From a bacterium (lineage in GTDB: Bacteria > Zhuqueibacterota > Zhuqueibacteria > Zhuqueibacterales > Geothermadaptataceae), in contig JAJRYV010000056.1 in NCBI GenBank assembly GCA_024275575.1, positions 1 to 35,895 on the forward strand: a stretch of DNA of 35,895 nucleotides. The letters are read 5' to 3'. Positions 368 to 27,820 of the stretch are shown in pieces. Every line of letters starts with the position of its first letter. Within the stretch, counting starts at the first letter, position 1. Both the position numbers and the translations under genes were made by a program. The notes beneath the pieces are model-generated. The model was not told the DNA's origin. It did not search any database and saw only the letters and a list, made by a program, of their open reading frames with translations.

Positions 368-1078
368 TTAAATATCATGACAAGTCAGGCACATCGCGCT
401 ATTAGCATTCGACATGCGCAGGAACGGACGGTTTGAATTATCATGCGGATTGTGACAGGAAGCACATTCCACCTGATCGTTATTCGTACCGTAGAGTTGC
501 AAGACGCCCACTTTGCCGTTAGTGGCCGGGTGGAATTTTGCGTCCTGCCCCGGATCATAAGTAATTGAAATCGGGTGATCGTTGGTCAGATCAGTTCCGA
601 TGTTGGTTCCCTCAAAATTCAGGCCATCTTCAGGGTTTGCGCCAACATGACAGCTCCCAGCACAACTGGAAATTGTGGTACCAGATGGCGTCACATTGCC
701 AAACTGCGAGGTTGGAATATTGATAACCTGATCGAGACCGATTGAGTTGTCATGGCAAGACAAGCACGCCAGCGAAACACCCTGTGCGCTACCGGCGACC
801 GTCATATCGATGGTCGGACTGTCATACATAGAATAAGGGCCGGCTGGTGTCGAACGATTCCACAACGGCGCATCAATAGCAGTGTTGTTGTTGTGCGGAG
901 TGTGGCAATAAACACAAACTTCGCCCAAATCCGTGACTGTCATCCCATCGCCATTAGCTTTGCGCAGGTTGTGTGGTGTATCACTAACTTTGTTACCAAA
1001 CTGCGCATAGACATTACCGGAAACTGTGAAGCACATTACCAACGCCAGAATGAGCATGATCATATAAGACTTCTTCAT
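368..1078 (-). CDS. Exported pentahaem c-type cytochrome (OmcE-like style)
   Basis: A 236-residue protein with a signal peptide (hydrophobic residues 5-20, likely cleavage after VYA at about 25). It has five haem-binding motifs: CVYCH (55-59), CLSCH (105-109), a three-spacer CAGSCH (139-144), CASCH (205-209) and CLTCH (230-234). The CVYCHTPHN...PLWNR...CLSCHD pattern resembles small extracellular cytochromes of the OmcE type that polymerise into filaments; this is from memory of the family, not a search. The start has a GGAGG 10 nt upstream. It is 58% or more identical by eye to the paralogue at 1428 and probably belongs to the operon led by the NHL lipoprotein. The protein should be periplasmic or extracellular and carry electrons. 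Function in filaments is inference. Confidence 0.85.
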   Translation of the reverse strand: MKKSYMIMLILALVMCFTVSGNVYAQFGNKVSDTPHNLRKANGDGMTVTDLGEVCVYCHTPHNNNTAIDAPLWNRSTPAGPYSMYDSPTIDMTVAGSAQGVSLACLSCHDNSIGLDQVINIPTSQFGNVTPSGTTISSCAGSCHVGANPEDGLNFEGTNIGTDLTNDHPISITYDPGQDAKFHPATNGKVGVLQLYGTNNDQVECASCHNPHDNSNRPFLRMSNANSAMCLTCHDI

Positions 1079-1427: not shown

Positions 1428-2129
1428 TTAAATATCATGGCAAGTCAAACACATGGCGCTGTTATCATTCGCCATGCGCAGAAAAGGCCGGTTTGAATTG
1501 TCATGTGGATTATGGCATGACGCACATTCCACCTGATCCTTGTTTGCGCCATAGAGGCGCAAAATTCCGATCACGCCATTGGTCGCCGGGTTAAATTTTT
1601 CATCCTTGCTCGGGTCGTAAGTAATTGAAATCGGATGGTCATTGCTTAAATCAGTTCCGATAACCGTGCCTTCGAAAGTTGTCTTGTTGTGAATTGCATG
1701 ACAGAAAGAAGCACATCCGGCGATCGTGCCGCCCTGCAAGGTAATTTGTCCGAATTGCGAAGTGGGTAAATTGATCACTTGGTCGAGAGCGATGCTGTTG
1801 TCGTGACAAGAGAGGCAAGCGAGAGAAACCCCGGTTGCACTGCCGGCAATGATCATGTCAATTGAAGGACTATCGTACATGCTGTAAGGCCCGGCTGGTG
1901 TTTCACGATTCCATAACGGTGCATCAATTTGCAGGTTATTGTTATGAGGTGTATGACAATAAACACAAATTTCGCCCAGATCTGCGACACCCATATTCAG
2001 AGCTTTACGCAGATTGTGTGGGGTATCAGCAACTTTGTTACCGAAGATGCCCTGAGCAGGCAAATCACCAGAACCGCTCACACACATCAAACAGATTGAA
2101 ACCAACATCAGAATGCATGGTTTTTTCAT
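1428..2129 (-). CDS. Exported pentahaem c-type cytochrome, paralogue 2
   Basis: A 233-residue exported cytochrome with the same five-motif layout as its neighbour: CVYCH, CLSCH, the three-spacer CASFCH, CASCH and CLTCH at the extreme C-terminus. An upstream in-frame ATG at 2171 exists, but I chose the ATG at 2129. It is preceded by AGGAG (9 nt) and starts directly with a signal peptide (MKKPCILMLVS...). The Shine-Dalgarno lies inside the last codons of the NHL lipoprotein gene, whose stop is only 4 nt away, so the two are translationally coupled. The coupling suggests that the NHL protein acts on or with this cytochrome. Main differences from paralogue 1 are in the loop around the CX3CH motif. 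Confidence 0.86.
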   Translation of the reverse strand: MKKPCILMLVSICLMCVSGSGDLPAQGIFGNKVADTPHNLRKALNMGVADLGEICVYCHTPHNNNLQIDAPLWNRETPAGPYSMYDSPSIDMIIAGSATGVSLACLSCHDNSIALDQVINLPTSQFGQITLQGGTIAGCASFCHAIHNKTTFEGTVIGTDLSNDHPISITYDPSKDEKFNPATNGVIGILRLYGANKDQVECASCHNPHDNSNRPFLRMANDNSAMCLTCHDI

Positions 2130-2133
2130 TCCC

Positions 2134-3258
2134 CTAATCTCCTGTTTTTGTTGTGATTGTTTCTTCTTCAACGGGCTCTGCTTTTAAATATTGGTAAATT
2201 TGCACGCGGTGGTTGAACTGATCCACCACGTAAATCTTATCATCCTTACTAATGTACATCCCTGCCGGCAAACGCAAGTCTGCAAGGCCGGCACCGAATT
2301 GCCCAAAATTGAGTAAAAGCGTCCCGTCATCCTGAAAGATCTGCACATTGCTGAATGAAGCATCAGCAACATAAACATGACCATCGCTATCCAGCCCGAT
2401 ACCTTTTGGGCGGTATAAATTGCCCGGCAGGTTGCCAATCTTACCGAAAGCATGGTCAAATTCACCATCACCAGTGAACACCTGAACACGAAAGTTCATG
2501 GTGTCGACGACATATATCTTGCCCGTCGGCGAGATCGCGATATATGTCGGAAAACTGAGCTCCCCTTCACCACTGCCACGGTTCTGGACTTGATCGAGGA
2601 CGCCATCTGTTTTTTCTTCAGGCTCAGGTTCATCGCGGCCGACGACTTTGATGACTTTACCTGACTCAAGCTCGAAGATTTTGATCTGGTGCGCCCACGT
2701 ATCAACGACATATGCACGGTTTAATTCTTCATTTATTACGATACCGGCTGGTCGCAGGAGAATCTTTTTGCCACCGAATGCCCTGATGAAAGTCAACGTC
2801 GAGTCATAAACCATAACCCGGCCGCCACCGATATCCGTTACGTAAATATTGCCTTTCTGATCACTGGTTACCGCCAGCGGATTTTTTAAATGCCCGCGTC
2901 CGCGTCCACCAAGTCGCTCCAGCTTGTGATTGTCAAAATCGAAAACCATGACAGAGGTCACACCGGTATCAACGACGTATAAGCGTCCTTTATCATCTAC
3001 ATGCACCGTCAACGGCTTGCGCAGATAACGCAGTGCACTGCGGCCAAAAAACAATTCAAAAATTTTCTGTGTTGTACTTTTTTGGATGCCCACATCCATT
3101 TCAGAATGGACGCTGCCGATGTAACGAATTCGAGGTTGTTGCGGCGGCAACGGCCAGACAAAATCCTCGGCTTTCTTGGCAGTATCCTTTTTTAAACCAC
3201 CGGCACAACCTGCAAGCATGAATGCGAACAAAATCAAAACGATACTATGGAATCTCAT
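2134..3258 (-). CDS. NHL-repeat beta-propeller lipoprotein
   Basis: About 374 residues. It begins MRFHSIVLILFAFMLAGC, a lipoprotein signal with lipobox LAGC (Cys18). About six NHL blades follow, each with a (I/V)YVVDT..(N/H)(H/F)(R/Q)(V/I)(Q/K)(I/V)F-type core, so the protein should fold as a six-bladed propeller anchored to a membrane. No enzyme motif is visible; such propellers usually bind proteins. The reading frame extends upstream to 3357, but the signal peptide argues for the ATG at 3258 or the in-frame ATG at 3270; neither has a strong Shine-Dalgarno. It is the first gene after a good sigma-54 promoter and is coupled to the pentahaem cytochrome. NHL proteins are reported beside extracellular cytochrome-filament genes, which suggests a role in export, assembly or surface attachment (inference). 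Confidence 0.82.
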   Translation of the reverse strand: MRFHSIVLILFAFMLAGCAGGLKKDTAKKAEDFVWPLPPQQPRIRYIGSVHSEMDVGIQKSTTQKIFELFFGRSALRYLRKPLTVHVDDKGRLYVVDTGVTSVMVFDFDNHKLERLGGRGRGHLKNPLAVTSDQKGNIYVTDIGGGRVMVYDSTLTFIRAFGGKKILLRPAGIVINEELNRAYVVDTWAHQIKIFELESGKVIKVVGRDEPEPEEKTDGVLDQVQNRGSGEGELSFPTYIAISPTGKIYVVDTMNFRVQVFTGDGEFDHAFGKIGNLPGNLYRPKGIGLDSDGHVYVADASFSNVQIFQDDGTLLLNFGQFGAGLADLRLPAGMYISKDDKIYVVDQFNHRVQIYQYLKAEPVEEETITTKTGD

Positions 3259-3437
3259 TGTCGAAATCATAAAAACGGCCCTGTTTTTCTGTTCATATCC
3301 GGAGATGATGTCAACACTATTATTTCTGCTAATCAAAAACTCACCATACATAAACAATACATAAAATAATCTAATCTGCAGAAATTCAAATCAGCTGTCC
3401 ATCACAGCTAAGATTCATTGGATATTGTTTACAGAAC

Positions 3438-3452
3438 GCAACAGTAATGCCA
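3438..3452 (-). promoter_or_regulatory. Sigma-54 (-24/-12) promoter of the NHL-cytochrome operon
   Basis: Minus strand TGGCATTACTGTTGC. GG and GC are separated by exactly 10 nt, as in the consensus TGGCACGNNNNTTGC, and the -12 TTGC is perfect. Predicted transcription start is near 3426. The neighbouring NtrC-type regulator fits, because such promoters need an enhancer-binding ATPase. Confidence 0.65.
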
Positions 3453-3580
3453 GAATCGCATTTAGATAAAAAAAGAAAAAAAGAGCACTTTATTTGAAAA
3501 CCAAACGATGAAAAAACAGGCGGTTACAGAAAAGAAATCCAGAGGTGGGGATAAGTGAAAATATAAACAGAACTAATAAA

Positions 3581-3615
3581 GTGCGCTATATCGCACAGCT
3601 AATGCGCTATTTAAC
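3581..3615. promoter_or_regulatory. Paired operator motifs, probable enhancer site
   Basis: Two copies of a TGCG(A/C)TAT motif start 21 bp apart, about two helical turns. The first is near-palindromic, GTGCGCTATATCGCAC (3581-3596); the second is TGCGCTATTTAAC (3603-3615). They lie about 155-190 bp upstream of the predicted start from the -24/-12 promoter at 3438. The same motif pair recurs at 6898-6934. Confidence 0.55.
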
Positions 3616-3670
3616 GCTGACGATAAATTAATTTGATAAAAAACAAAAACATCCCCTTTTTGCAGCAGCT

Positions 3671-5041
3671 TCAATTCAACAAATTATACTTTTTCATTTT
3701 ATATCGCAAGGCATGGCGGGAAATATTCAACAATTTGGCGGCGTGTGATTGGTTTTGGTTGGTGTTTGCCAGTGCTTTAATGACCAGCGATCGCTCTACT
3801 TCGTCAAGCGGCGTACCCTCGGCGGAAAAGGTTAAACTACCTGCTTCATCAGACAGTCCATTATAATACAAGACCTCGGCAGGCAGGTGCTCCGGCAGAA
3901 TAGTATCGCCTGTCTCGAGAATGATGACTCTTTCGATAACATTGCGCAACTCGCGAATATTGCCCGGCCAGCGGTAGCTGCATAATTTCTTCATCGCCGC
4001 TTTGGAGATTTTGTGCAAGCTCTTTTTGAACTTTTTATTAAAATGCTCAACGAAATGAAGCACCAGCAATTCGATATCCTGTTCCCGCTGAAAAAGCGGC
4101 GGTAGTTCGATGGGAATAATATTCAATCGGTAATAAAGGTCTTCACGAAACAGCTCCTCTTTTACCAGTTTCTTCAAATCCTTGTTGGTTGCCGCGATGA
4201 CCCGAATATCTACAGAGATATCCTTGGTTCCACCGACGCGTTTAAATTGCTTTTCTTCGATGAAGCGTAACAGTTTTACCTGAAAAGAGGGGCTCGCATC
4301 ACCAATCTCATCGAGCAGAATCGAACCCCGGTTTGCCAGCTCAAATATACCTTGCTTGCGTCCTTTCGCATCTGTAAAGGCGCCCATTTCATAACCGAAC
4401 AACTCACTTTCAAGCAATGTATCGGGTAGCGCGCCACAATTCACCGCCATAAACGGATAATCCATACGCGGACTCTCATAATGAATGGCTTTGGCGACGA
4501 TATCTTTGCCGGTTCCACTCTCTCCGGTGATGAGTATCGTCTCCGCATCGCTGTGAGCAACCTTGTCGACCAAATTGATCACTTGCTGCATTTGTGGTGA
4601 TTTCCCGATGATTTGATCGATGCCAAATCGTGATTTCAACTGTTTGTTTAAGGTTGAAACCTTCTGACTCAATTCCTGTGTTTTCAATACTTTGTCAATA
4701 TTCAGTTTAAGTTCGTCACAGGTAAATGGTTTTTTAATAAAATCAGCGGCACCGATTTTGATTGCTTCGACTGCGGTTTGTACAGTGGCATAAGCCGTCA
4801 TCATGATGATAATCTGTTCCGCATTTTCAGCAAGAATGGCTTTTAAGACCTGAAGCCCGTCGATATCCGGCAATTTCAAATCGAGCAGCACCAGGTCTGG
4901 GGTATTTCTTGCATACTGCTTGATACCGCTTTTGCCGTTGCTTACCGTTTCTACTTTATAACCCATGCTTGTTAGATCACGCGATAAAGACCAGGTAATC
5001 AATTTGTCATCATCGATAATAAGAATTTTATTTTTTTCCAT
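3671..5041 (-). CDS. NtrC-family sigma-54-dependent response regulator
   Basis: A 456-residue activator in three parts. The receiver domain (1-120) has acidic residues DDD at 10-12, the phospho-acceptor Asp54 in LLDLKLPD, and Lys104 in KKPF. The AAA+ domain (about 142-375) has Walker A GESGTGKD (173-180) and Walker B ILLDEIGD. A Fis-type helix-turn-helix ends the protein (NQSHAAKLLNISRHALRYKM). The sigma-54 contact loop reads GAFTDA instead of GAFTGA. I chose the ATG at 5041 because AGGG lies 5 nt upstream and the receiver starts there; the frame is open to 5074. It lies 163 nt downstream of the haem-motif kinase, its likely partner. It probably drives the two local -24/-12 promoters through the repeated operator motifs (inference). 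Confidence 0.93.
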   Translation of the reverse strand: MEKNKILIIDDDKLITWSLSRDLTSMGYKVETVSNGKSGIKQYARNTPDLVLLDLKLPDIDGLQVLKAILAENAEQIIIMMTAYATVQTAVEAIKIGAADFIKKPFTCDELKLNIDKVLKTQELSQKVSTLNKQLKSRFGIDQIIGKSPQMQQVINLVDKVAHSDAETILITGESGTGKDIVAKAIHYESPRMDYPFMAVNCGALPDTLLESELFGYEMGAFTDAKGRKQGIFELANRGSILLDEIGDASPSFQVKLLRFIEEKQFKRVGGTKDISVDIRVIAATNKDLKKLVKEELFREDLYYRLNIIPIELPPLFQREQDIELLVLHFVEHFNKKFKKSLHKISKAAMKKLCSYRWPGNIRELRNVIERVIILETGDTILPEHLPAEVLYYNGLSDEAGSLTFSAEGTPLDEVERSLVIKALANTNQNQSHAAKLLNISRHALRYKMKKYNLLN

Positions 5042-5204
5042 AGGTACCCTGAAAATAATGAGGCTGAATTTCACCGCAGACCGGTATTATGAAAAAAAAT
5101 GCAATGAAACCAGCGGTAATTCGAATGAGGTTATTCCCCCGGGAAGAATTAATCTGCGCGGTGCTTACATCTGGGTGATCATTCCGGGAGAGGTTGGTTG
5201 ATAA

Positions 5205-6674
5205 TTATAGTTCAGCAATTGAGCCGACCGGAAGCTCGATAATAAATGTTGTTCCACGACCGTCTTCACTTTCAAAATAAATAACGCCTTTATGGCGATT
5301 GATGATCTCTTTGCAGAGAAACAGCCCCAGACCAACACCTTTATCTTTGGTGGTAAAAAACGGTTCGAATACTTTGTGTTTTAAATCGGCAGGGATACCT
5401 TTCCCCGTATCGCTAATTTGAATATTGATATTCTTTTCATCTTCTATAAATTTTACATTTATAGTAAGTTGTCCCCTGTTAGACATCGCCTGGATCGCAT
5501 TGATGATGAGATTCATGAGCACCTGTTCGATCTGGCGGCTATCGGCGAGAATTTCGGGCAGGTTTTCATCGATAAAACTTTTCGTCTTCAACTGCTTCGT
5601 ATCCTGCTGGGAAACGAAAAGGATAATACGTTCGATCATCGGCTTCAGGTTGGTTGGGAACCGTTCAAAACGGCTTTCTCGTGCGATCGTCAGCAGGGCC
5701 TCGAGATTTTGCTCAACGCGATGCGCTTGCCGGACAATCTCCTCAAAAATTTCGCGACGGCTGTCGTCTGCCGGAGTTTCACGCAAAATGGAATTTGCCG
5801 CGAATACAATCCCAGAAATTGGATTTTTAATTTCATGCGCCATACCGGCTGCCAGCTCACCTACTTTTGCGATAGATTCCACTTTCACGAGCTCACGGTT
5901 GTGTAATTCCAATAGTTCATTTCTTGCTGCCTGCAATTTTTCCCCCATTTCGTTCATGCCTTTCGCTAATAAACTGATTTCATCACGCGGGATATTTTTA
6001 ATGCGGTATGAAAAATTCTCTTTTTTCATTTCATCCATGGCTTTTTTTAAATCTTTAATGGGTCCATCCACTGAGCGGTTGAATAAAACATGTGTTGCCA
6101 ACGATAAGGTGACGATGGCGACAAACGTAATTCCGCATAAAATTAGAATGATCGAATTTTGGTCCGCAAAAGAATTTTCTGCGCGCGTTTTGACCAGCGA
6201 AACACCAAGAATTTTGCGCTTCGGGTTGTGACAGCTATTGCAGCGCCCGCGGTTTTTCAGCTTTTTCAGCAAAATCGCCTCAACGAAACCATCGACGGTT
6301 TGCGTTGACAGGCGAACACTGTCCCGACTGGTGATAAAATCGCCCAATTCATGATGATCAGTCGGCTGAAAGAGAGAGTCGACATGTGCTGTTAGCCGAA
6401 CCCTTCCCAGCGTATCCAAAAAACTGACTTCCGTCAGATGGGGCAAGTTTATGAATTCGAGCAAAGTATTACGCAGTAAATCCGGCTCGTTGAGTCCGGA
6501 TTGAGCGAGCACCTTTTCAAAAATCTCAGTAAAAATTGTAACATCGGTAGTCACATGCTCTTTCACTGTGCTCTTGTGCAAAATGAGGCCGAAATAGAAC
6601 GTAACGACCGTAGCCAGGGAAATAATAAAGAATATGTGAGCAACAACCCGGGACCTGAGCTTTCTGAAAACCAT
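5205..6674 (-). CDS. Membrane sensor histidine kinase with a c-type haem motif in its periplasmic domain
   Basis: About 489 residues. Transmembrane helix 1 (about 12-33), a periplasmic domain (about 34-173), helix 2 (about 174-198), HAMP, a HisKA box (AAGMAHEIKNPISG, His at about 280) and an HATPase with N (NLIINAIQAM), DTGKGIP and GVGLGLFLCKEI boxes. The periplasmic domain carries CNSCH (about 145-149), a canonical covalent-haem motif, just before helix 2. I infer sensing of redox state, a ligand such as NO/O2, or electron flow. The ATG at 6674 is preferred over the TTG codon just before it. It is the first gene of a kinase-regulator operon with its own -24/-12 promoter. Haem attachment is inferred from the motif and the periplasmic location. 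Confidence 0.92.
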   Translation of the reverse strand: MVFRKLRSRVVAHIFFIISLATVVTFYFGLILHKSTVKEHVTTDVTIFTEIFEKVLAQSGLNEPDLLRNTLLEFINLPHLTEVSFLDTLGRVRLTAHVDSLFQPTDHHELGDFITSRDSVRLSTQTVDGFVEAILLKKLKNRGRCNSCHNPKRKILGVSLVKTRAENSFADQNSIILILCGITFVAIVTLSLATHVLFNRSVDGPIKDLKKAMDEMKKENFSYRIKNIPRDEISLLAKGMNEMGEKLQAARNELLELHNRELVKVESIAKVGELAAGMAHEIKNPISGIVFAANSILRETPADDSRREIFEEIVRQAHRVEQNLEALLTIARESRFERFPTNLKPMIERIILFVSQQDTKQLKTKSFIDENLPEILADSRQIEQVLMNLIINAIQAMSNRGQLTINVKFIEDEKNINIQISDTGKGIPADLKHKVFEPFFTTKDKGVGLGLFLCKEIINRHKGVIYFESEDGRGTTFIIELPVGSIAEL

Positions 6675-6703: not shown

Positions 6704-6719
6704 TGCAAGAGATATGCCT
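6704..6719 (-). promoter_or_regulatory. Sigma-54 (-24/-12) promoter of the kinase-regulator operon
   Basis: Minus strand AGGCATATCTCTTGCA. The GG-to-GC spacing is exact and TTGCA matches the -12 consensus. The predicted start near 6693 gives a 19-nt leader to the kinase ATG. This implies that the two-component system activates itself. Confidence 0.62.
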
Positions 6720-6897
6720 GAAAAGCGGGGATTACCCATGCAATATAAAATTCCAGCGCCTAATTCAAAAGCCCTAATTTTACTTTGAACAATAAATTAC
6801 GAATTCTGATAGCTATAGTTAGAATTAATTAAATTAACTGCAATCAACACGCATCCTGCAGATTTCATCCGTCGACAGCATTAGAAAAAATATTGAA

Positions 6898-6934
6898 TTG
6901 CGCTATTTGACACAGTTTGTGTGCGATATGTAAC
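6898..6934. promoter_or_regulatory. Paired operator motifs, second locus
   Basis: TTGCGCTATTTGACA (6898-6912) and TGTGCGATATGTAAC (6920-6934) are spaced 23 bp apart. They match the pair at 3581-3615. They sit about -205 to -240 relative to the predicted kinase start and could also serve the divergent plus-strand operon. Confidence 0.55.
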
Positions 6935-7083
6935 AATGATTTTCATTGATAGGCGTCTATAGTGCCAACCCTGGTCCATGCCAATTTTTCTTTCTCCTCT
7001 TTCATAGCATAAATCAGGCGAAAAGCAGGAAAAATATTCAACAACTCTTTATTATACAAAATAATTTTATTTTCTGCAAAAAA

Positions 7084-7330: not shown

Positions 7331-8575
7331 ATGATGAAAACTAGAAAACTGTTTACCTTTCTTTTTGCTGCTTCCGTCTTTTCGCATGCTGCGGGATTGC
7401 CTGCCCCCGCTCAGGCAGCGACTTCAAATATCAAACATATTTTCTCCATTTCGGAAGGTTTACGCAGTCCACTGCGCATCGCTGTCACCACAGATGATTA
7501 TGTTTATGTTGCCGACGTCACCGCCAGAAAAATTTGCAAGTATAACCTGCAGGGCAACTTGATGGCAGAAATCAATCTTCCTTCGGTGCCGCTGGCTTTA
7601 AGTGTCACCCCGGAAAAGCAATTGCTCATCGGTGATCCACAAGGGCGCCTGCAGCTTTTTGACGCCGGCGGGGTACTGCTGAAACCGGCGCCTAATCCCT
7701 ATGGTATCGCCAATTTGCCGGTTGATGCGGCAATGGATGATGATAATAATCTTTACCTTGTCGATAGCAACAACAAATCCGTAAAAGTTTTTAATGCTAC
7801 CGGTGCACTCGTGCGCACTTTCGGCTCAGATATCATGATTTTCCCCACAAGCATCACCATCGACCACCTCAACAACCGGCTTCTCGTTGCGGATCACGGT
7901 GGTTTATTTAGCGAAAACCAGACGAATGGTCTCATTCATATTTATGATTTCCACGGGAATTACCTTTCATCTTTTGCCGAATTCGGCACAAAACCAGGCC
8001 AGTTTTCACGAATTCAGGGCATCACCATCGATCAGTCCGGGCACATCCTTGCCGCGGACCCGTTTCAGGGCAAAGTCACGATTTTAGATAAGAATGGCGC
8101 CTATTTGGGTTCAGTTGGCAGATTTGGAACTGAAGCCGGAGAATTTCAGATGCCGATGGACGTGGCTGTGGATTCAAAAAATCAACTCTGGGTTGCTTCG
8201 ACAAATACCGGCCGGGTCGAAGTTTTTGCTCTCGGTGATCCTGTCTCAGCAGTGACTGAAGCAGAAGCGCCCGCCATGTTTTCGAAAAACATTCTATTGC
8301 AAAACTTTCCCAATCCATTTAAAAAAGGCACCTGGATTCCTTTCATCATCAGTGAAAACAGCCACGTTACGCTGCGCATCTACAGCGGCGTTGGGCGCCT
8401 CGTGCGCACTATCGATGCCGGCGACATGGCAGCAGGCGCTTACGATAGCAAAGCGCGGGCAATTTTCTGGGACGGAACCAGCAATACTGGGGAGCGGCTC
8501 TCTACCGGGCTATATTTCTGCAAGTTTGCCGCCGATGATTTTAGTGCAATGAAACGCCTGATTTTATTAAAATAA
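7331..8575 (+). CDS. Secreted NHL-repeat protein with C-terminal FlgD-like/T9SS sorting domain
   Basis: A 414-residue protein with a signal peptide (to about residue 29, AQAA). The middle (about 35-300) holds NHL-type blades, for example VYVADVTARKICKY, LYLVDSNNKSVKVF and ILAADPFQGKVTIL. The last 85 residues are a FlgD-like sorting domain starting QNFPNPFKKGTWIPF and ending FAADDFSAMKRLILLK. This predicts export through the outer membrane and surface attachment or release. TAAGG lies 6 nt before the first of two adjacent ATGs. It leads the plus-strand operon, 23 nt ahead of a 17-haem cytochrome, and parallels the NHL-plus-cytochrome pairing on the minus strand, so it probably works on or beside the cytochromes at the cell surface (inference). 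Confidence 0.85.
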   Translation: MMKTRKLFTFLFAASVFSHAAGLPAPAQAATSNIKHIFSISEGLRSPLRIAVTTDDYVYVADVTARKICKYNLQGNLMAEINLPSVPLALSVTPEKQLLIGDPQGRLQLFDAGGVLLKPAPNPYGIANLPVDAAMDDDNNLYLVDSNNKSVKVFNATGALVRTFGSDIMIFPTSITIDHLNNRLLVADHGGLFSENQTNGLIHIYDFHGNYLSSFAEFGTKPGQFSRIQGITIDQSGHILAADPFQGKVTILDKNGAYLGSVGRFGTEAGEFQMPMDVAVDSKNQLWVASTNTGRVEVFALGDPVSAVTEAEAPAMFSKNILLQNFPNPFKKGTWIPFIISENSHVTLRIYSGVGRLVRTIDAGDMAAGAYDSKARAIFWDGTSNTGERLSTGLYFCKFAADDFSAMKRLILLK

Positions 8576-8598: not shown

Positions 8599-10734
8599 AT
8601 GACTGTTAACAAGGAATGTATTGCCGATTATCCGATCCCGGTTACAAGCAGGAGCCTGAAAACAACAGTACAGATCATTTGTTGCTTATTCATATTTTTC
8701 AACATGTTCCGACCCCTTGCAGGGCAGGAAAAAGGCAATCAGCCAAAACTTTTATTCGACGGCAACAACCCGACAATCCAGGCGATCGATGCGCCACACT
8801 GGGGCACAACGATTGAATGTCTCTCCTGCCATGCATTGCATGAAAGTCCGGGTGGCCAATTGACCGCTGTTGCGGGAAATGCCAATTTGTGCATGAGTTG
8901 CCATAACCCAACCGGCCAGGCCGGCGCCAAACCCTTTGTCGCAGCAGACAAAGCAGTGCCCGGGACCAGTGGCACCTCGCACGCCTGGGATGTGGCAGCA
9001 GACAATCCGACGCACGGTGCAGCGCTGCCGGCGAACCCCGATATCAGTAGGCAAATCATCAATGGGCAGATTATTTGTTCCACCTGTCACGACCAGCACA
9101 AACAAACTTTTCAGCCATTTTTGCGGGCGGATAATACTGACGACGCTATGTGCCGCGATTGCCATGCTGAGCGCGATATCGGCAGTTATCGTGACAACCC
9201 TGGAAACAAGGGCAGCCATCCCATCGATCTACAGGGTTCACTCACCTGCTCAAGCTGTCATCAGGTACATTTTGCTTATACCGGCGGCGCCTACCCGCAG
9301 GGCGACGGCTATTTATTAAAACAGGCAAATGACGACAATTTATGCATGAATTGCCACGACACCTATGGCCCACACATGGGCATGGGCTGCCGCAAATGTC
9401 ACAAACCACACGATCCCAACAAACAGAATATTTTGCTTGTCAAAGACCGTATCTGGACGCCCAACAGCGGGCAGAAAAATGTGCGTTTTTACAGCGAAAC
9501 CGGCGCTTTTTCATTTGCCGACGGCGATAATACTTACGACGGCATTTGCGAAATCTGCCACACACAAACCAACCATTTTCGTAACGACGGCAGTGGGCCG
9601 ACACAAAATCATGAAAATTTTGCCGGTGGTTATGCCGGCGCAAACTGTACCGACTGTCACTTACACAAGAACGCATTCCTGCACGGAAGTGGCGGCACAG
9701 GCTGCATCGAATGTCATGGACACGACAAGGATTTCGAGTATGAGCCGGGGCTTTTCAGCGCTGGTGCCGGGACTTCGCAAAGCCATTCGACGCATACCGA
9801 GGATGACGCTGACGATATTCGCGGACCGCTACTCGTTTGCGCCGATTGCCACGATACCAACAATTTTCCGACTTTTGCCGACGGACAAGACCTGACAAAT
9901 ACTACCGTTTGTGACGCTTGCCACAGTGCAGACGGCGCCTTCGACGGATTATCATCTGTCAACGGTTCCATCGGCGCCAAAGATAATTGGAAAACCGGTG
10001 TTTACACTGCAACCGACAGTTTGCAAACAGGCAAAGAAAAATGGTGTGTCGGCTGCCATGACCAGGGCAGTTCCACCATTGAAGGCGTGAGCGCGCCGCC
10101 GGTCGCCGGTGATAATTCAGTTTGGGGCTATTATGCCAAAGGGCACGGCCTGAATAACAAAGCCATCTGCTCCGATTGCCATGATTTGAGCACCGATCAC
10201 CTCGACGGCGAACCGCGCACCTACAGTTCAGGTAGCAATAATTACACTGCCGGGTATCGACTGCGCAGTGACCTGACCCTGCTTGTACCCAATCCACAGG
10301 GGACGAAAAACATCACAGAATCTGACTATAATCTATGCTGGCAAAGTTGTCATACTTTAAATGCGCTGCTCAATAACACCAATTTTTCAAAAGGCATGGG
10401 TGGCAAGAGCCTGCACCAAAAACATCTGAAAGAAAATGCCCGGAATAGAGAAGGCTGGCAATCGGACTGGAGTGTACCGCTCGATTCACCGAACAGCGAT
10501 TCACGGGTGACCTGCCCAGCCTGCCACAATATGCATGGATCAGATAACAATTATCAGGTGCGGGATGGCCGTTTAACCAATGGGAACGGGAATATTGGAT
10601 TTACCGGCGGCGGTGGTAGTGGTACTTGCAGTGGTCAGTATTGCCACGGTAATGAAAGTTACGGTGGTGGCATGGGCGGAGGTATCAATCACAAAGATTT
10701 ACTTTACAGCCCAGCAGATTCATCTCGCCGCTGA
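8599..10734 (+). CDS. Large multihaem c-type cytochrome (about 17 haem sites)
   Basis: A 711-residue exported protein. The hydrophobic signal segment (about 24-42) follows an unusually long polar start; GAAGGT lies 5 nt before the ATG. I count 15 CXXCH motifs (from CLSCH near residue 75 to CPACH near 640), plus one CX3CH (CWQSCH) and one CX4CH (CSGQYCH) near the C-terminus. The last pair resembles the CxxxxCH/CxxCH domain known from Geobacter cytochromes. The N-terminal 370 residues or so are strongly paralogous to the 1285-residue cytochrome downstream (APHWG..IECLSCH, GNANLCMSCHNPTG, MGMGCRKCHKPHDP). The tail is Gly/Ser rich. Likely a periplasmic or extracellular electron conduit; location and partner unknown. 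A strong terminator ends the operon. Confidence 0.92.
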   Translation: MTVNKECIADYPIPVTSRSLKTTVQIICCLFIFFNMFRPLAGQEKGNQPKLLFDGNNPTIQAIDAPHWGTTIECLSCHALHESPGGQLTAVAGNANLCMSCHNPTGQAGAKPFVAADKAVPGTSGTSHAWDVAADNPTHGAALPANPDISRQIINGQIICSTCHDQHKQTFQPFLRADNTDDAMCRDCHAERDIGSYRDNPGNKGSHPIDLQGSLTCSSCHQVHFAYTGGAYPQGDGYLLKQANDDNLCMNCHDTYGPHMGMGCRKCHKPHDPNKQNILLVKDRIWTPNSGQKNVRFYSETGAFSFADGDNTYDGICEICHTQTNHFRNDGSGPTQNHENFAGGYAGANCTDCHLHKNAFLHGSGGTGCIECHGHDKDFEYEPGLFSAGAGTSQSHSTHTEDDADDIRGPLLVCADCHDTNNFPTFADGQDLTNTTVCDACHSADGAFDGLSSVNGSIGAKDNWKTGVYTATDSLQTGKEKWCVGCHDQGSSTIEGVSAPPVAGDNSVWGYYAKGHGLNNKAICSDCHDLSTDHLDGEPRTYSSGSNNYTAGYRLRSDLTLLVPNPQGTKNITESDYNLCWQSCHTLNALLNNTNFSKGMGGKSLHQKHLKENARNREGWQSDWSVPLDSPNSDSRVTCPACHNMHGSDNNYQVRDGRLTNGNGNIGFTGGGGSGTCSGQYCHGNESYGGGMGGGINHKDLLYSPADSSRR

Positions 10735-11006: not shown

Positions 11007-14000
11007 ATGAAAATGGGTAAAACAATTGTTTTACTATGCATCACGGTTTTACCGATGCAGCAACAGGGATATGGCCGACAAAGAGGAAAAGTGCCGCTTT
11101 CACGTGTGGAAATGGAGAAAGCGGCAGCGTTGGCCTCGCCGGATGCACCGCACTGGGGCGATTCAATCGAATGCTTATCCTGCCACATGTTGCATGAAAG
11201 CAAAGGCGCCCAACTGACGAATGTCGCCGGCAACGCCAACTTATGCATGAGCTGCCACAACCCCACCGGCCGTGCGAGCGCAAAACCGTTTACCAATGCC
11301 GACAGGGCCATCCCCGGCACTTCCGGGACCTCGCACGCCTGGGACAAACCGGCCACGAAGCCACAGTTCGGCGCAGCGCCACCGACAAACACCGAGATGA
11401 GCAGAAGACTTTTTAATGATAAAATCGTTTGTTCAACCTGTCACAATCAGCACAAACAGACCTTTTCACCCTTTTTGCGGGATTCGAATAACGGCAACGC
11501 CCTGTGCAAGGACTGCCATAGTGTACGCGACGTGCCCAGCTACCGCAGCGATGCCAACAGCAAAGGCAGTCACCCGGCCGGTGTTGTCTACCCGGTTTCC
11601 GACTCGCGATTTTTCAGCAGCCCCCAGAATCCCAATTTACCGCTGATCGATCCCGACAAAGTGGAATGCACAACCTGCCACAAGCCCCACTTTGCCAGCT
11701 CGGGTGACACCAGCAACGGTCAGGGTGACGGTTATATTCTGCGTGATAAAAACGATGATCAACTCTGCATGGATTGCCACACTTACACGGCGCACATGGG
11801 CATGGGCTGCTGCAAATGCCACCAGCCCCACGATCCGGACCAGAACAATATTTTGCTGGTGAAAGAGACCGTCTCAACACCAAATAGCGGTTATAAATCG
11901 GTTGTTTTCATACAGGAATCGGGCGTCAGTTCCTTTGCCGACGGCAACAGTACCTACAATGGGATTTGCGAGGTTTGCCACACACAAACGGCCTACCACC
12001 GTAACAACATCAGCGGTAACCACACACACAACGCCGGTGATAATTGCACCGTTTGCCATAAACACGAGAAAAGTTTTATTCCGCCGCCATGCCACGAATG
12101 CCACGACCAGCCGCAGGACAACGGCGACGGCATCCCCGCCGGCGGCCGCCGCGCTATCGTCGGCGAATTGACCGGCATGAGCCACCACCTGCAAAGCGCC
12201 TCCCTCAAGCCGGATGATTGCCGGATCTGCCACGACATGAGCAAGCATAGCCAGGGCCGCGTGCGACTGAAAGACCGCGACAATTCGGCAATAATTTATG
12301 AACTCATCAACCGCCCGATGGATGATTATACCGAAGCGCTGAAACTCGAACCATTTTGCCTCAATTGCCATGATGGTGATAGCGACACCCCATTTGCCGA
12401 TGGCAAAATATCGCCGCAGGTCGATGCCGGCATGTGGCAGAATTCCGCCCACAAAAAAGGCGGCTCCGGCCTCAAACTAACCTGCATGGGAAAAAACGAT
12501 GAATTCGGTTGCCACGCCACCGGCCACGGATCGGATAATATCAAAATCTTAAATACCGACAATGCTCTGGAAACCCTCGATAAATTCTGTTACAAATGCC
12601 ATACAGCCGGCAAGGTTGAAAATCTCGCCCTGTCCGGCGCCGCAGTCTCGAATGATATCGAAGAAGTATTCATGAAAAGTGAAAAACACAATTTGGGCAC
12701 CCAATTCACCACGGATGGCAAAACTTTCACCCTGCAATGTACTTCCTGCCACAATCCACACATCGTCACCGGGAAGCATTGGGATGTGGCATCCGGAGTT
12801 TCGCCGGTAACGCGACCGGATTTAAATGCTGACCCGGCAACCAATCAGCGCGCTATGGGCAATGCCCTCTGGGGCGCTTCCTCCGGCCAAAAAATGCGGG
12901 ATTTTGCTGCGCAGGGTAGCGGCACCGGTGGTTGGTATTACAGTACGGCGCGCGGCGGCACGATTTCCTGGGATCAACCAGCGGTCTACCAGCCCCCGAA
13001 AAAAGGCTCCGGCTACAATTTCGAATTCAGCAGCAGTGTGCTGCCGGACTATCCTACTCTCTGCCTCGATTGCCATTCACAGCGAGTGAGCCCGAGCAAC
13101 CCACCCGTAAACTGGGGTCAGGGCATCTCCTGCACCGACAACAGCGTCGACCCGCCTAATCAGCGTATCGAATGCGGCGCACAGCATGGCCTCAATGCCG
13201 CGGGCATGCCGAATTATGTCAGTGATCAGGGCAAAGCCGGGTTCTGGGGAAGCAGCGGTAATCCCGATGTACTTTTTCACATGAATTATGTCACCCGCGG
13301 GCGCGGTGTGGGACATTTCATGCGCTGGCCCTATGATTCCGCTGAACGCACGGCAGGAATAAATTTTGTTCTCTCCTGCACCGATTGCCACGAGTCGCAC
13401 GGTTCCAATGCCGCCTCGATGCTGCGCTCGACCATCAACGCTTACGGTGCCGGCACCAGCAACTGGAACACGATGTGCAATAACTGCCACTACTATTACG
13501 GCGGCCAGCATGCAGGAATGAGCTGCGGCAACGCTTCCTGCCACGAAGCCAATTCGATTCACCGGATTATTCATACGACCGATAGCGGCGCCGGTACAAA
13601 GCTGCAGCTTACCGCTTCAGGAAACGAAAGTAATTACCAGCGCCCGGATTTCACGCCGGACATCATCAAAGCGGAAAGTGATATCGGCAGCAATCAAATT
13701 CAATTAATTTTCCGCGGCGGCGTTTACACGAACAGCAACCTCACCGGCAGCGTCAACACCAGTGACTTCTGGTATTTCGACGTCGGCGGCAACAATCCCA
13801 AATATATCACCAATATTTCGCACAGCGCCGGTGCAAGCACGGCCACCGTCCATATGAGCAGCGCGCTTACTTCCGCTGATCTCAACAATGACATCATCGC
13901 CTCGCGCGGCAAAACCATCTGGAACTGGTACGACGGTGGTTATGTCAACTCCGCCACCGGCACTATTCCCGCACAGGCTGTTTCTGCCGGACCCTGGCCG

Positions 14001-14864
14001 GTGACAATTTCGAGGAAATGCCCCACAGGCACGGTTGCATTTCAGCTCAACGAATCTGCCGGCAGCTCCACGGCTTCCGATCAGAACGGCTATTTTGTCG
14101 GCTCCGTCAGTAATCCCTCGGTGGTTTTCCCCGGAGACGGTTATTTTCACGGCGAGGAAAGCCAGGGGACTTATATCGAGTTCAACAGCAATAACGACTG
14201 TCTCATTTCTCCGAGTTCTACCGGTTATCAGCGCGAATTAACCATCGAAGCACGCTTCCGGCCCAGCGTGGTCGACCTTGATTTCACCGACAGCGATGGC
14301 GACAGCATCGACGACAACACACGCACCAGCACACAACTGCGCGTCTTCGAGCGCAAAAGAACGTTTCAACTCACCGTCATGCGCGGCGACTGGATGACAG
14401 ACAATGTACTGGATCGCGCCGGCAAAGCCCGCATCATCTTTAAATTCCGCGCTGCACCGCCCTACCGCCGCGATTGTGGCGCCGATGGCCCGGGTGCATG
14501 GATGAAACAGGTCTATTCCGACATCAACAGCTATCCCATCGTGGCGAACCACTGGTATCGTGTCAAAGTCGTTTTCAATTCCAACGATTCTCAAATTCCG
14601 GTACGAATTTATGGTGATGATTTGGGAACGGACGGCAATGGCGCCGGTGAAAACTGGGGTGGTTTCGTACAAATTTTCTCATCGAACCCCAACGACAGTG
14701 GCGCCTGCAAATGGGTCTCGCAACCAGGGGATGAAATGGCTGTTGAAAGCCAACCGACGATCATCGGAGATAACACCGTACACAATGATGTTCCCGGAGA
14801 CAGCGGCAACCAGTTGTTTAAAGGAGAGATTGACTGGATTACGTGGAAATCGTTCGTTGATTAG
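11007..14864 (+). CDS. Giant multihaem cytochrome with C-terminal LamG-like domain
   Basis: 1285 residues with a short signal peptide (about 1-23); AAAAGGT is 8 nt before the ATG. I count 17 CXXCH motifs (including CCKCH), one CX4CH (CGNASCH near 855) and one possible CX8CH (CMGKNDEFGCH near 505), all in the first 860 residues. The first 370 residues are paralogous to the 711-residue cytochrome upstream; the rest of the haem region is different. From about 870 a haem-free part follows: an Ig-like segment (IQLIFRGGVYTN...SDFWYFDVG), then a concanavalin/LamG-like region (about 1010-1285; VAFQLNESAG..., LTIEARFRPS, HWYRVKVVFNSND, GEIDWITWKSF). LamG folds usually bind glycans or surfaces, so I infer a cell-surface cytochrome that touches polysaccharide, minerals or other cells. 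No sorting domain is visible at its C-terminus. Confidence 0.9.
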   Translation: MKMGKTIVLLCITVLPMQQQGYGRQRGKVPLSRVEMEKAAALASPDAPHWGDSIECLSCHMLHESKGAQLTNVAGNANLCMSCHNPTGRASAKPFTNADRAIPGTSGTSHAWDKPATKPQFGAAPPTNTEMSRRLFNDKIVCSTCHNQHKQTFSPFLRDSNNGNALCKDCHSVRDVPSYRSDANSKGSHPAGVVYPVSDSRFFSSPQNPNLPLIDPDKVECTTCHKPHFASSGDTSNGQGDGYILRDKNDDQLCMDCHTYTAHMGMGCCKCHQPHDPDQNNILLVKETVSTPNSGYKSVVFIQESGVSSFADGNSTYNGICEVCHTQTAYHRNNISGNHTHNAGDNCTVCHKHEKSFIPPPCHECHDQPQDNGDGIPAGGRRAIVGELTGMSHHLQSASLKPDDCRICHDMSKHSQGRVRLKDRDNSAIIYELINRPMDDYTEALKLEPFCLNCHDGDSDTPFADGKISPQVDAGMWQNSAHKKGGSGLKLTCMGKNDEFGCHATGHGSDNIKILNTDNALETLDKFCYKCHTAGKVENLALSGAAVSNDIEEVFMKSEKHNLGTQFTTDGKTFTLQCTSCHNPHIVTGKHWDVASGVSPVTRPDLNADPATNQRAMGNALWGASSGQKMRDFAAQGSGTGGWYYSTARGGTISWDQPAVYQPPKKGSGYNFEFSSSVLPDYPTLCLDCHSQRVSPSNPPVNWGQGISCTDNSVDPPNQRIECGAQHGLNAAGMPNYVSDQGKAGFWGSSGNPDVLFHMNYVTRGRGVGHFMRWPYDSAERTAGINFVLSCTDCHESHGSNAASMLRSTINAYGAGTSNWNTMCNNCHYYYGGQHAGMSCGNASCHEANSIHRIIHTTDSGAGTKLQLTASGNESNYQRPDFTPDIIKAESDIGSNQIQLIFRGGVYTNSNLTGSVNTSDFWYFDVGGNNPKYITNISHSAGASTATVHMSSALTSADLNNDIIASRGKTIWNWYDGGYVNSATGTIPAQAVSAGPWPVTISRKCPTGTVAFQLNESAGSSTASDQNGYFVGSVSNPSVVFPGDGYFHGEESQGTYIEFNSNNDCLISPSSTGYQRELTIEARFRPSVVDLDFTDSDGDSIDDNTRTSTQLRVFERKRTFQLTVMRGDWMTDNVLDRAGKARIIFKFRAAPPYRRDCGADGPGAWMKQVYSDINSYPIVANHWYRVKVVFNSNDSQIPVRIYGDDLGTDGNGAGENWGGFVQIFSSNPNDSGACKWVSQPGDEMAVESQPTIIGDNTVHNDVPGDSGNQLFKGEIDWITWKSFVD

Positions 14865-18498: not shown

Positions 18499-19626
18499 AT
18501 GAAGAAGAAAATGCAATGGATCGTCATGCTCCTGATAACCTTTGCCATCATCATCGGCAGCACCAGCTTAATGGCGCAACACGATTTCGGTGGCCGCGGC
18601 ATGATGCATTCACAACTAACTGAAGACCAGCGCACCCAACTGCTCGAGACTGTTTCACAACTGCGTGAGAGCAATGCCAGCCGTGAAGAAATCCGCGCAG
18701 CGGTCGCTACCCTGTTTGAAAGCTGGGGGCTTGAAGCACCGCAATTTGGACAGCATGCCGGGTTCAGCCGTGGAATGGGGCAAAAAGGCGCCTTCATCGA
18801 TGCGAACACCACTGCTGAACAGCGTATCGAACTCTACGCTAAACACGATGAAATGTGGAAAAGCGGCGCTACGCATGAAGAAATGCGCACAGCGGCATAT
18901 GCGTTGTTGACTTCATGGGGAATCGAATTGCCGGACACAACTGCCTGCCCCGGCATCGGTATACACAGAGAAAACCACGAGGATGAACTGATGCAGGAAC
19001 AGCGTGTTGCAGTGCGCGCAAAAATTAAAGAAATGCGTATTGCCGGAAAATCCCGCAAAGAAATCCACGATGCCGTTGCAGAAATCCTCAAAGGTTTTGG
19101 CGTTGAACTGCCTGGTAAACCTGAATATTCGCGTTCAGGCCGGGGCCATGGCCGCATGGGCCAAAAACCGCAATTAACCGACGGGCAGCGCGCTGCACTT
19201 TATGCCAAACAGCAGGAATTGCTGGCAACTGGCGCAACCCATACCGAGTTGCGCCAAGCCCGCCTAACGATGTTGCAGGAATGGGGTTTCAGCCGGCCGA
19301 ATACACCTCGCGGCGACCAACCGATGCGTGGCAGAAAACACGGTGAAACCCGCGGTATCCAGGCCTGCAATTATCCCAACCCTTTCAACCCGCAAACCAA
19401 TATCAGCTATACACTGGAAAATGCCGGTCAGGTTAAAGTGAGTATTTTCAACTTGAGGGGACAGGAGTTACGGGTGCTGTTTAGCGGCAGCCAATCGGCC
19501 GGCGAACACACTGTACGCTGGGATGGCAAACTGGCCAACGGCGAGTCGGCAGGTTCAGGAACTTATCTCTATCGTATTGAAACGGTCGGTCAGGTGACGA
19601 CTAATAAGATGATTTTAATGAAATAA
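18499..19626 (+). CDS. Secreted four-repeat helical protein with T9SS/FlgD-like sorting domain
   Basis: 375 residues: signal peptide (1-26, SLMAQ), four repeats of about 45 residues, then a C-terminal sorting domain. Each repeat has the pattern (T)xxQRxxLxxKxxEMxxxGATxxE(M/L)RxAxxxLLxxWGxExP: about 40-82, 104-146, 163-205 and 224-266. The repeats are predicted amphipathic helical pairs, divided by Gly/Arg/His/Met-rich linkers (RGMGQK, GRGHGRMGQK). The C-terminus (NYPNPFNPQTNISYTL ... GSGTYLYRIETV ... KMILMK) is a classic FCB sorting domain. The repeats loosely recall the metal-binding Spy/CpxP LTxxQ helices, so a periplasmic or extracellular metal or chaperone role is possible. I do not recognise a named family. 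Followed by a terminator. Confidence 0.78.
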   Translation: MKKKMQWIVMLLITFAIIIGSTSLMAQHDFGGRGMMHSQLTEDQRTQLLETVSQLRESNASREEIRAAVATLFESWGLEAPQFGQHAGFSRGMGQKGAFIDANTTAEQRIELYAKHDEMWKSGATHEEMRTAAYALLTSWGIELPDTTACPGIGIHRENHEDELMQEQRVAVRAKIKEMRIAGKSRKEIHDAVAEILKGFGVELPGKPEYSRSGRGHGRMGQKPQLTDGQRAALYAKQQELLATGATHTELRQARLTMLQEWGFSRPNTPRGDQPMRGRKHGETRGIQACNYPNPFNPQTNISYTLENAGQVKVSIFNLRGQELRVLFSGSQSAGEHTVRWDGKLANGESAGSGTYLYRIETVGQVTTNKMILMK

Positions 19627-26308: not shown

Positions 26309-26452
26309 ATCAAAAAGAATCGGCGGCAGCATTTTCTGACCGGGTTCGAGATCAACCTTTCATTTTGCCGCATAATTTTTATATTTTATTGGATGTTGAC
26401 CAAAATACTCCCGCTTATGACGGCTTAAAAATATTTGCAAACGGCAGCAGGA

Positions 26453-27820
26453 ATGAGCAAAAACAATAACGAAGATAGCCTGCAATGGCTGCTGGAGAAT
26501 TATTTTTCCTCACCGGGAAAATGTATTCACATCAAAAAAGGTGACTGTCTTTTTAAAAAAGGGGATGCTAACGACCGCCTCTATCTGGTGAAAAAAGGTC
26601 ATCTGATCGGTTATGTCGATAACCCGGACGGCAGCCGCTATGCCAGGTTTGAAGCGAGTGAAAACATGTTTGTCGGCATCGTCAGTTTTTTTTCGCGCAC
26701 TTATGTGGCGCGGGCAAACGTCATCGCACAGGAAGATTCGCAAATCGCCTATATCAGCAAAGATCAGCCGTTCATTCCCCGGCAAGGTTACCATTCCCTT
26801 TTCGACCAGTTCATGCCCGTCGTCGTCACCGATCTGGCATTCCGGCAACACCGGGAACAGAAAATTTTCCTCGAAAAAGAAGCCGCGACCAGGAAACTGG
26901 CGCATACGGAAAAGATGGCATCGCTGGGTCAGATGGCAGCCGGACTCGCCCATGAACTAAATAATGCCATCGCCGTGCTGGAGCGCAATACAAGCTGGCT
27001 GCGCGAAAATATCACCATGATTTTGCAAAAACGCTATCCCCAGGAGTTTCCATTTTTTCAGCACGGCAATAAAAACGGCCGCCGCCTTTCCAGCAGTGAG
27101 GTGCGCAAGCGTTCCCGTGAATTCATGAAAAAATTTGCCCTGGCGCGGCAAGACGCACAAAAATTGGCACAGACCGGCATCAGCTCCGGCGATGTGCGCC
27201 GCTTTGTTGAATTTCTCGAGGTTGAGGCGGATATCGTACATTACTACTGGGATATCGGCGCCACATTTCATGACATGGCCGTGGCGGCACGGCACGCAGC
27301 CCATGTCGTCCGTTCGGTGAAAGCCCTGGGGGCACAGCGGCATTCACGACAACTCAATCTCGATGTCAATGACAGCATTAAAGAGGCGCTCGCGCTGCTC
27401 GCCGCAAAACTGGATACGGTCAAACTCAAACAGGATTTGGGCAAACTGCCGCCGATAGTCGCCAACATCGGTGAACTGGTACAAATCTGGAGCAATCTGA
27501 TTAAAAACGCTGTAGATGCGATGCAGCAGGCGGGCACAAAAAACCCTGAAGTGCGCATTCGCAGTAAACTTTCAGGAACGGCAATCCATGTTTATATCGA
27601 AGATAACGGCCCGGGAATTCCGAAGAAATTGCAAAACATTATTTTTCAACCCAATGTCACGACAAAAGCACAGGGCTTATCTTTTGGATTAGGCCTGGGG
27701 CTCTCCATCATCGAAAAAATCGTCGACAGTTACAACGGCACGATTTCCGTGGCCAGTGTGCCCGGGAAAACCGTTTTCAAGGTCGAGCTTCCGGCAGGAG
27801 ACCGTGATGACCAAACCTGA
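26453..27820 (+). CDS. Soluble histidine kinase with N-terminal cyclic-nucleotide-binding-like domain
   Basis: 455 residues without membrane segments. Residues about 20-120 form a CRP-like jelly-roll (IKKGDCLFKKGDANDRLYLVKKGHLIGYV), without the full phosphate-binding RxxT box. A coiled linker leads to HisKA with phospho-acceptor in AAGLAHELNNAIA, a long helical insert, then HATPase boxes NLIKNAVDAM, EDNGPGIP and GLGLGLSIIEKI. The start is uncertain: a TTG at 26435 opens the frame, but the ATG at 26453 is likelier, with AGGA very close to it. The next coding frame begins at 27807, overlapping this gene's end by 14 nt with an ideal ribosome site, but it runs only 28 codons. The kinase therefore appears to have lost a coupled partner. 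Confidence 0.88.
   Translation: MSKNNNEDSLQWLLENYFSSPGKCIHIKKGDCLFKKGDANDRLYLVKKGHLIGYVDNPDGSRYARFEASENMFVGIVSFFSRTYVARANVIAQEDSQIAYISKDQPFIPRQGYHSLFDQFMPVVVTDLAFRQHREQKIFLEKEAATRKLAHTEKMASLGQMAAGLAHELNNAIAVLERNTSWLRENITMILQKRYPQEFPFFQHGNKNGRRLSSSEVRKRSREFMKKFALARQDAQKLAQTGISSGDVRRFVEFLEVEADIVHYYWDIGATFHDMAVAARHAAHVVRSVKALGAQRHSRQLNLDVNDSIKEALALLAAKLDTVKLKQDLGKLPPIVANIGELVQIWSNLIKNAVDAMQQAGTKNPEVRIRSKLSGTAIHVYIEDNGPGIPKKLQNIIFQPNVTTKAQGLSFGLGLGLSIIEKIVDSYNGTISVASVPGKTVFKVELPAGDRDDQT

Follow-up and report, generated by a model that had tools for sequence, protein, structure and literature searches.

A conserved locus in Zhuqueibacterota probably links a haem-c sensor kinase and a sigma-54 regulator to a neighbouring cytochrome cluster

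The window analysed here, a stretch of 35,895 nucleotides of DNA from a bacterium of the Zhuqueibacterota, encodes a histidine kinase with a CNSCH motif in its periplasmic sensor and an NtrC-type response regulator. The reading we favour, with a probability of about 0.68, is that these proteins are a haem-c sensor kinase and a sigma-54 regulator dedicated to the surrounding electron-transfer cytochrome cluster. In the mechanism we propose, Cys145 and Cys148 would hold one haem c covalently in a periplasmic single Cache domain, with His149 as the proximal ligand. A change at the haem, most likely in redox state and distal ligand, would shift the last strand of the domain and the second transmembrane helix (TM2), and this shift would pass via the HAMP domain to set kinase autophosphorylation. 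The kinase would phosphorylate the regulator encoded beside it. Bound to paired palindromes (TGYGYNAWATNRCRCA) that lie 118-151 bp ahead of a sigma-54 box, the regulator would switch on the adjacent NHL/tetrahaem-cytochrome operon. In most genomes it would also activate its own kinase-regulator operon, and the divergent operon of large cytochromes may be a third target. The haem-c kinase joins a known class; the conserved local circuit is the new and more useful result.

The kinase gene runs on the minus strand from an ATG at 6674 to a stop codon at 5205 and encodes 489 aa; the plus strand across 5205-6674 is riddled with stops. The longest open reading frame (ORF) starts at TTG 6677, whose following codon is ATG 6674, and the latter was retained as the start because the common N-terminus of the orthologues begins there. 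HAMP, HisKA and HATPase_c domains all score above their Pfam cut-offs, bearing out the histidine kinase proposed at this place in the initial annotation. Hydropathy predicts transmembrane segments at about residues 8-34 (TM1) and 168-202 (TM2). The CNSCH motif lies between them, at residues 145-149 exactly as first numbered (window 6242..6228), some 20 residues ahead of TM2 with one strand (155-166) intervening. When the residues of the protein were shuffled 20,000 times, a CxxCH of any kind arose in 11 cases. The kinase features are as follows.

5205..6674, minus strand: predicted haem-c sensor histidine kinase, 489 aa, stop included (ORF, Pfam, orthologue N-terminus)
6165..6575, minus strand: predicted periplasmic single Cache sensor, residues 34-170 (hydropathy, AlphaFold, structure matches)
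6228..6242, minus strand: CNSCH codons, residues 145-149 (sequence, orthologue alignment)
5928..6065, minus strand: HAMP domain (Pfam; coordinates computed from the match)
5679..5861, minus strand: HisKA domain with the phospho-acceptor His (Pfam)
5226..5543, minus strand: HATPase_c domain (Pfam)

Searching the proteins of 60 genomes, which included that of the window, recovered six full-length kinase orthologues with 42-62% identity, located in a Calditrichaeota MAG (L032) and in five MAGs of candidate division KSB1 (L033-L037). A seventh, from a genome of another class (G069), came from a profile search of 82 genomes of the phylum. In the resulting alignment of eight sequences, window protein included, C145, C148 and H149, the residues whose loss would have told against a haem site in the initial annotation, are invariant (8/8). 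Other invariant positions include H40, D44, H79, G90, F113, N141, G157 and T163. Compared with the window protein, the sensors share 22-36% identity and the kinase cores 48-76%; the invariant CxxCH therefore stands out in a fast-changing sensor.

The CNSCH motif might instead be a thiol switch or a metal site, given that a CxxC by itself can be a thiol pair. This seems very improbable to us: His149 is as invariant as the cysteines (8/8), the place and flanks of the CxxCH agree with those of two crystallised haem-c sensors, and the window genome encodes the proteins for cytochrome c assembly. Sensor domains with haem motifs have been noted in Anaeromyxobacter, according to the part of PMC3831638 available to us.

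From wider searches with the sensor profile 24 loci were taken, made up of 23 more distant matches and the G069 orthologue (L068). The matched region contains a CxxCH in 23 of the 24, mostly elsewhere in the domain, and the distant matches are a related, larger and non-orthologous group. In a larger set of histidine kinases from the same class (L013, L015-L018, L022, L026, L028-L030), the sensor combines a CxxCH about midway along its length with another motif, CWQADCHAH-like (C-x4-CH), immediately ahead of TM2, and possibly carries two haems.

An AlphaFold model of the sensor, built with the first seven sequences, reached a mean pLDDT of 80 and a pTM of 0.65. From the N-terminus it consists of a long helix continuing from TM1, a second helix, strands at 80-86, 91-95, 120-127 and 130-140, the helix of the CxxCH motif (143-147), a strand at 155-166 and the TM2 helix. 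As modelled, the sensor is a single Cache fold with the CxxCH on a short helix preceding the last strand. A Foldseek search with the model gave 10 matches at E 0.001 or better, to chains of WalK, GSU0935, GSU0582 and CitA, and VIA retrieved WalK (5is1; Z 12.4, rmsd 2.8, 121 aligned). Tll0287 is absent among the 50 VIA matches listed for the sensor, which excludes nothing.

Sequence profiles point in the same direction. A single-sequence search of the PDB gave E values of 0.41 and 0.96 for 3b42 and 3b47, too weak to dispense with an alignment profile; the eight-row sensor profile matched them at E 0.0017 and 0.007, respectively, in an alignment running through the haem motif. Pfam family PF21563 matched seven of the eight rows at E 1 or better (best 4e-06), the window protein scoring 18.3 bits, under the cut-off of 27. 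PF11845 gave weak matches in two of the eight rows (best E 0.065). Pfam alone thus leaves the family placement unsettled, and the window protein is best placed beside GSU0935 and GSU0582. Because of the structure and profile matches to these two proteins, the sensor belongs beside known haem-c Cache sensors; the earlier view that most of it had no recognisable family does not hold, given the Cache fold and the profile-level similarity. The accessible part of a 2026 preprint (PMC12889525) places GSU0935 and GSU0582 in a haem-c Cache family.

Both of these domains bind haem c, with one haem in GSU0935 ligated by His144 and Met60 and the other by His and water, as far as the available part of PMC8396549 goes. 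In our alignment, column 60 holds Met in seven of the eight orthologues, the exception being the window protein; either this protein has another distal ligation or the role falls to a His. The best reading of the sensor, we infer, is that haem chemistry is coupled to kinase activity. The same protein and circuit could nevertheless belong to a gas sensor, the haem responding to nitric oxide and the cytochrome cluster detoxifying NO or being adjusted to it rather than to redox poise, a combined reading that we rate as rather unlikely. Slow-leaving NO on a signalling haem-c Cache protein is described, and the class named NO sensors, in the part of PMC12889525 at hand, while binding of NO and CO by GSU0935 and GSU0582 appears in that of PMC8396549; lacking the Met of column 60, the window protein could also have an open site. 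Against NO, the invariant H40 and H79 could occupy the sixth position, and in all eight loci the neighbouring genes specify electron-carrying cytochromes and a barrel rather than NO enzymes. It is because of these neighbour genes that we prefer redox sensing, which is a judgement.

The genes surrounding the kinase are listed below.

3671..5074, minus strand: NtrC-type response regulator with receiver, sigma-54 activation and Fis-type helix-turn-helix domains (Pfam)
2134..3357, minus strand: NHL-repeat protein, N-terminus lipobox-like; its gene opens the predicted target operon
1428..2171, minus strand: tetrahaem paired-CXXCH cytochrome (Pfam)
368..1078, minus strand: tetrahaem paired-CXXCH cytochrome, second copy (Pfam)
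7331..8575, plus strand: NHL-repeat protein with a secretion-tail domain, divergent operon (possible target)
8599..10734, plus strand: multihaem cytochrome, 15 CxxCH
11007..14864, plus strand: multihaem cytochrome, 17 CxxCH

In all eight loci the regulator gene lies directly downstream of the kinase gene on the same strand, so that a HisKA/HATPase kinase adjoins a receiver/AAA/HTH regulator in the arrangement of an NtrC-type pair. NHL and tetrahaem paired-CxxCH genes adjoin the pair in 8/8 loci as well; they are on the opposite side in L069 and in another order, and more diverged, in L036. Upstream, five of the seven other loci (L032-L035, L037) resemble the window, with an NHL gene in divergent orientation and a large multihaem cytochrome; the arrangement differs in L036 and L069. 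Geobacter offers what is presumably a similar neighbourhood, the regulator BccR adjoining the haem kinase GSU0599, of which no evidential use is made here.

Several further observations concern the window. The tetrahaem genes at 368-1078 and 1428-2171 are similar and in tandem in the window and in L032, and single in L033, L034, L035 and L037. Positions 18499-19626 encode a secreted protein that contains several similar repeats and whose C-terminus resembles a sorting tail; related tails adjoin the cytochromes in L035 and L037. Another histidine kinase, at 26435-27820, has an N-terminus that, judged by eye, resembles a cyclic-nucleotide-binding domain rather than transmembrane helices.

The intergenic regions of the locus contain candidate promoters and regulator sites, the former called by consensus only, with a -24/-12 score of our own weighting of the sigma-54 consensus.

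6704..6720, minus strand: sigma-54 type -24/-12 box before the kinase, CAGGCATATCTCTTGCA (consensus scan)
3437..3453, minus strand: sigma-54 type -24/-12 box before the NHL/cytochrome operon, CTGGCATTACTGTTGCG, between the regulator and the NHL gene (consensus scan)
3582..3597, no strand: palindrome TGYGYNAWATNRCRCA, exact, putative enhancer site (reading of intergenic DNA, scan)
3603..3618, no strand: further copy of the palindrome with 1 mismatch, spaced 21 bp from the exact one (scan)
6899..6914, no strand: palindrome, exact, between the kinase and the divergent operon (scan)
6920..6935, no strand: further copy with 2 mismatches, likewise spaced 21 bp from the exact one (scan)

Ahead of the cytochrome operon, seven of the eight loci have a best box of 0.92-0.946 (Fisher p 1e-11 against dinucleotide shuffles), and that of L036 is weak, at 0.824. 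In L035 the mechanically called ORF start overlapped the box, so the first operon gene was taken to begin at 11470 instead of 11388 before the shuffles were run. Before the kinase, a box of 0.90 or more is present in five of seven loci (p 7e-8; L069 lay outside the test), the consensus scan detecting no such box in L033 or L034. Those ahead of the divergent operon score weakly (p 0.006). The window genome encodes rpoN (PF04552 match, E 2.8e-61).

The palindrome occurs in intergenic regions, often as a pair 21 bp apart. It was spotted by eye ahead of any testing, and the later tests therefore matter. With up to two mismatches the window contains nine matches, eight of which belong to paired sites; the bare count of nine is not unusual, being reached in 37 of 100 shuffles. 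Across the 4.96-Mb window genome the exact palindrome is found at three places, two of them at the kinase locus, and a reversed control palindrome has no exact match. Six of the seven other kinase-bearing genomes have an exact copy at the kinase locus, and a copy within one mismatch occurs at both intergenic regions in all seven tested. The palindrome is upstream of the sigma-54 box in the eight loci, with a gap of 118-151 bp.

The pair also follows the kinase through the phylum. With at most one mismatch, the 21-bp pair is present in 6 of 82 genomes, all of them kinase holders and always at the kinase locus. Two mismatches bring in more kinase-locus matches together with three genomes lacking the kinase (G060, G046, G008). 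At up to three mismatches, where the pair first appears in the kinase holders G019 and G069, it is found in 36 of 82 genomes and the reversed control matches in many too, so that only up to one mismatch was taken as evidence.

The layout of the palindrome, two 5-bp halves six bases apart, resembles that of a CRP site (TGTGA-N6-TCACA); the palindrome could then belong to another factor, for example a CRP/FNR-type protein, and the kinase-regulator pair act elsewhere. We consider this improbable, as the 21-bp pairs stand upstream of the sigma-54 boxes in eight loci in the manner of NtrC-type enhancers, track the kinase holders at the one-mismatch level and accompany a regulator whose C-terminal helix-turn-helix is closely similar across the eight loci. 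The regulator encoded beside the kinase is thus our preferred candidate for binding the palindromes.

No wider regulon was found when the window genome and its seven kinase-bearing relatives were searched for exact palindromes off the locus. All 10 such copies are inside mechanically called ORFs, some short or doubtful, and two of the 10 have a sigma-54 box of 0.85 or more within 450 bp. Further exact palindromes in other genomes of the class were inspected in G002, G004 and G006. In G004, for which no kinase orthologue was found, one lies on a contig with homologues of the NHL (59%) and tetrahaem (70%) proteins, 171 bp from a 0.929 sigma-54 box, and the contig ends where the regulator and kinase would be. 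G004:C374 and G006:C592 each hold two exact palindromes 22 bp apart adjoining unrelated genes and without a box (L095 5726-5763 and L096 1790-1827). Elsewhere, at the end of a G006 contig, about 200 bp separate a palindrome from a 0.936 sigma-54 box (L099 4001 and 4207), and G069 has a further one-mismatch palindrome downstream of the regulator gene, near a contig end (L069 12763).

The window contig begins at window base 1, and the genes described next were seen in the orthologous loci only. Farther along the operon, these loci include more multihaem cytochromes, an isomerase gene (5/7 loci, by position; Pfam PpiC/SurA in both copies run) and a gene for a protein of about 655 aa, without a Pfam match in the four of seven copies run. 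The L035 copy of the latter, modelled together with five others, folds into a barrel of about 30 strands (pLDDT 79.6). Among its VIA matches MtrB ranks first (Z 16.4, rmsd 6.2, 452 aligned), less than one Z unit ahead of PirA (Z 15.5), and Foldseek alone ranks siderophore receptors and LptD at the top. Judged from the model, the protein is clearly a barrel and likely one of the MtrB type. As the operon adds an isomerase, multihaem cytochromes and an MtrB-like barrel, the circuit probably controls a conduit for extracellular electron transfer.

One extension of this picture, which we hold only tentatively, is that the sensor haem swaps electrons with the periplasmic cytochromes made by the circuit, the kinase reading how full the outgoing chain is and adjusting the number of conduits. 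If true, this would be an electrical feedback loop, shared by two classes of the phylum, in which paired sigma-54 enhancers work together with a haem-c two-component system. Sensors of the haem-c Cache type occur widely, and target genes for one were not found in the literature searched; none are given for sCache_heme sensors in the accessible part of PMC12889525. The same literature, which included few subscription papers, yielded no description of the kinase, palindrome or cluster in Calditrichota/KSB1, and we found no mention of NHL, histidine kinase or two-component in the available part of PMC12133095. The locus offers a haem-c Cache sensor with a named regulator, sites and promoters beside electron-transfer genes, and control of extracellular electron transfer by haem redox state or gas is therefore testable in a small system.

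Among known systems, the closest to the sensor are GSU0935 and GSU0582 of Geobacter sulfurreducens (PDB 3b42 and 3b47; related Pfam family PF21563), which share with it a periplasmic domain between two transmembrane helices and a PAS/Cache-like fold with the CxxCH preceding the last strand. They differ in being chemotaxis receptors, whereas the window protein is a histidine kinase with an adjoining sigma-54 regulator, and their Met60 ligand is without a certain counterpart in it. The sCache_heme family (DUF3365/Tll0287, PF11845) resembles the window sensor in its Cache fold with a CXXCH in an added helix, and its fused signalling group includes histidine kinases, following the part of PMC12889525 available; PF11845 itself has no match to the window protein at E 1 or better. 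As in the MtrCAB, Pcc and Oet porin-cytochrome conduits (described in PMC10553843, seen in part), multihaem cytochromes occur in the orthologous loci beside a large predicted outer-membrane barrel; the differences are a barrel without a Pfam match and an operon with NHL proteins and a PpiC/SurA isomerase. Compared finally with the NtrC/AtoC/ZraR two-component systems, the regulator has the same receiver, sigma-54 activation and Fis-type helix-turn-helix domains, and the kinase core is nearest to the AtoS and ZraS models, all proteins here scoring under the cut-offs of those equivalog models. What sets the present pair apart is the GAFTDA motif of the regulator in place of GAFTGA, in 8/8 loci, and the predicted haem-c input domain of the kinase.
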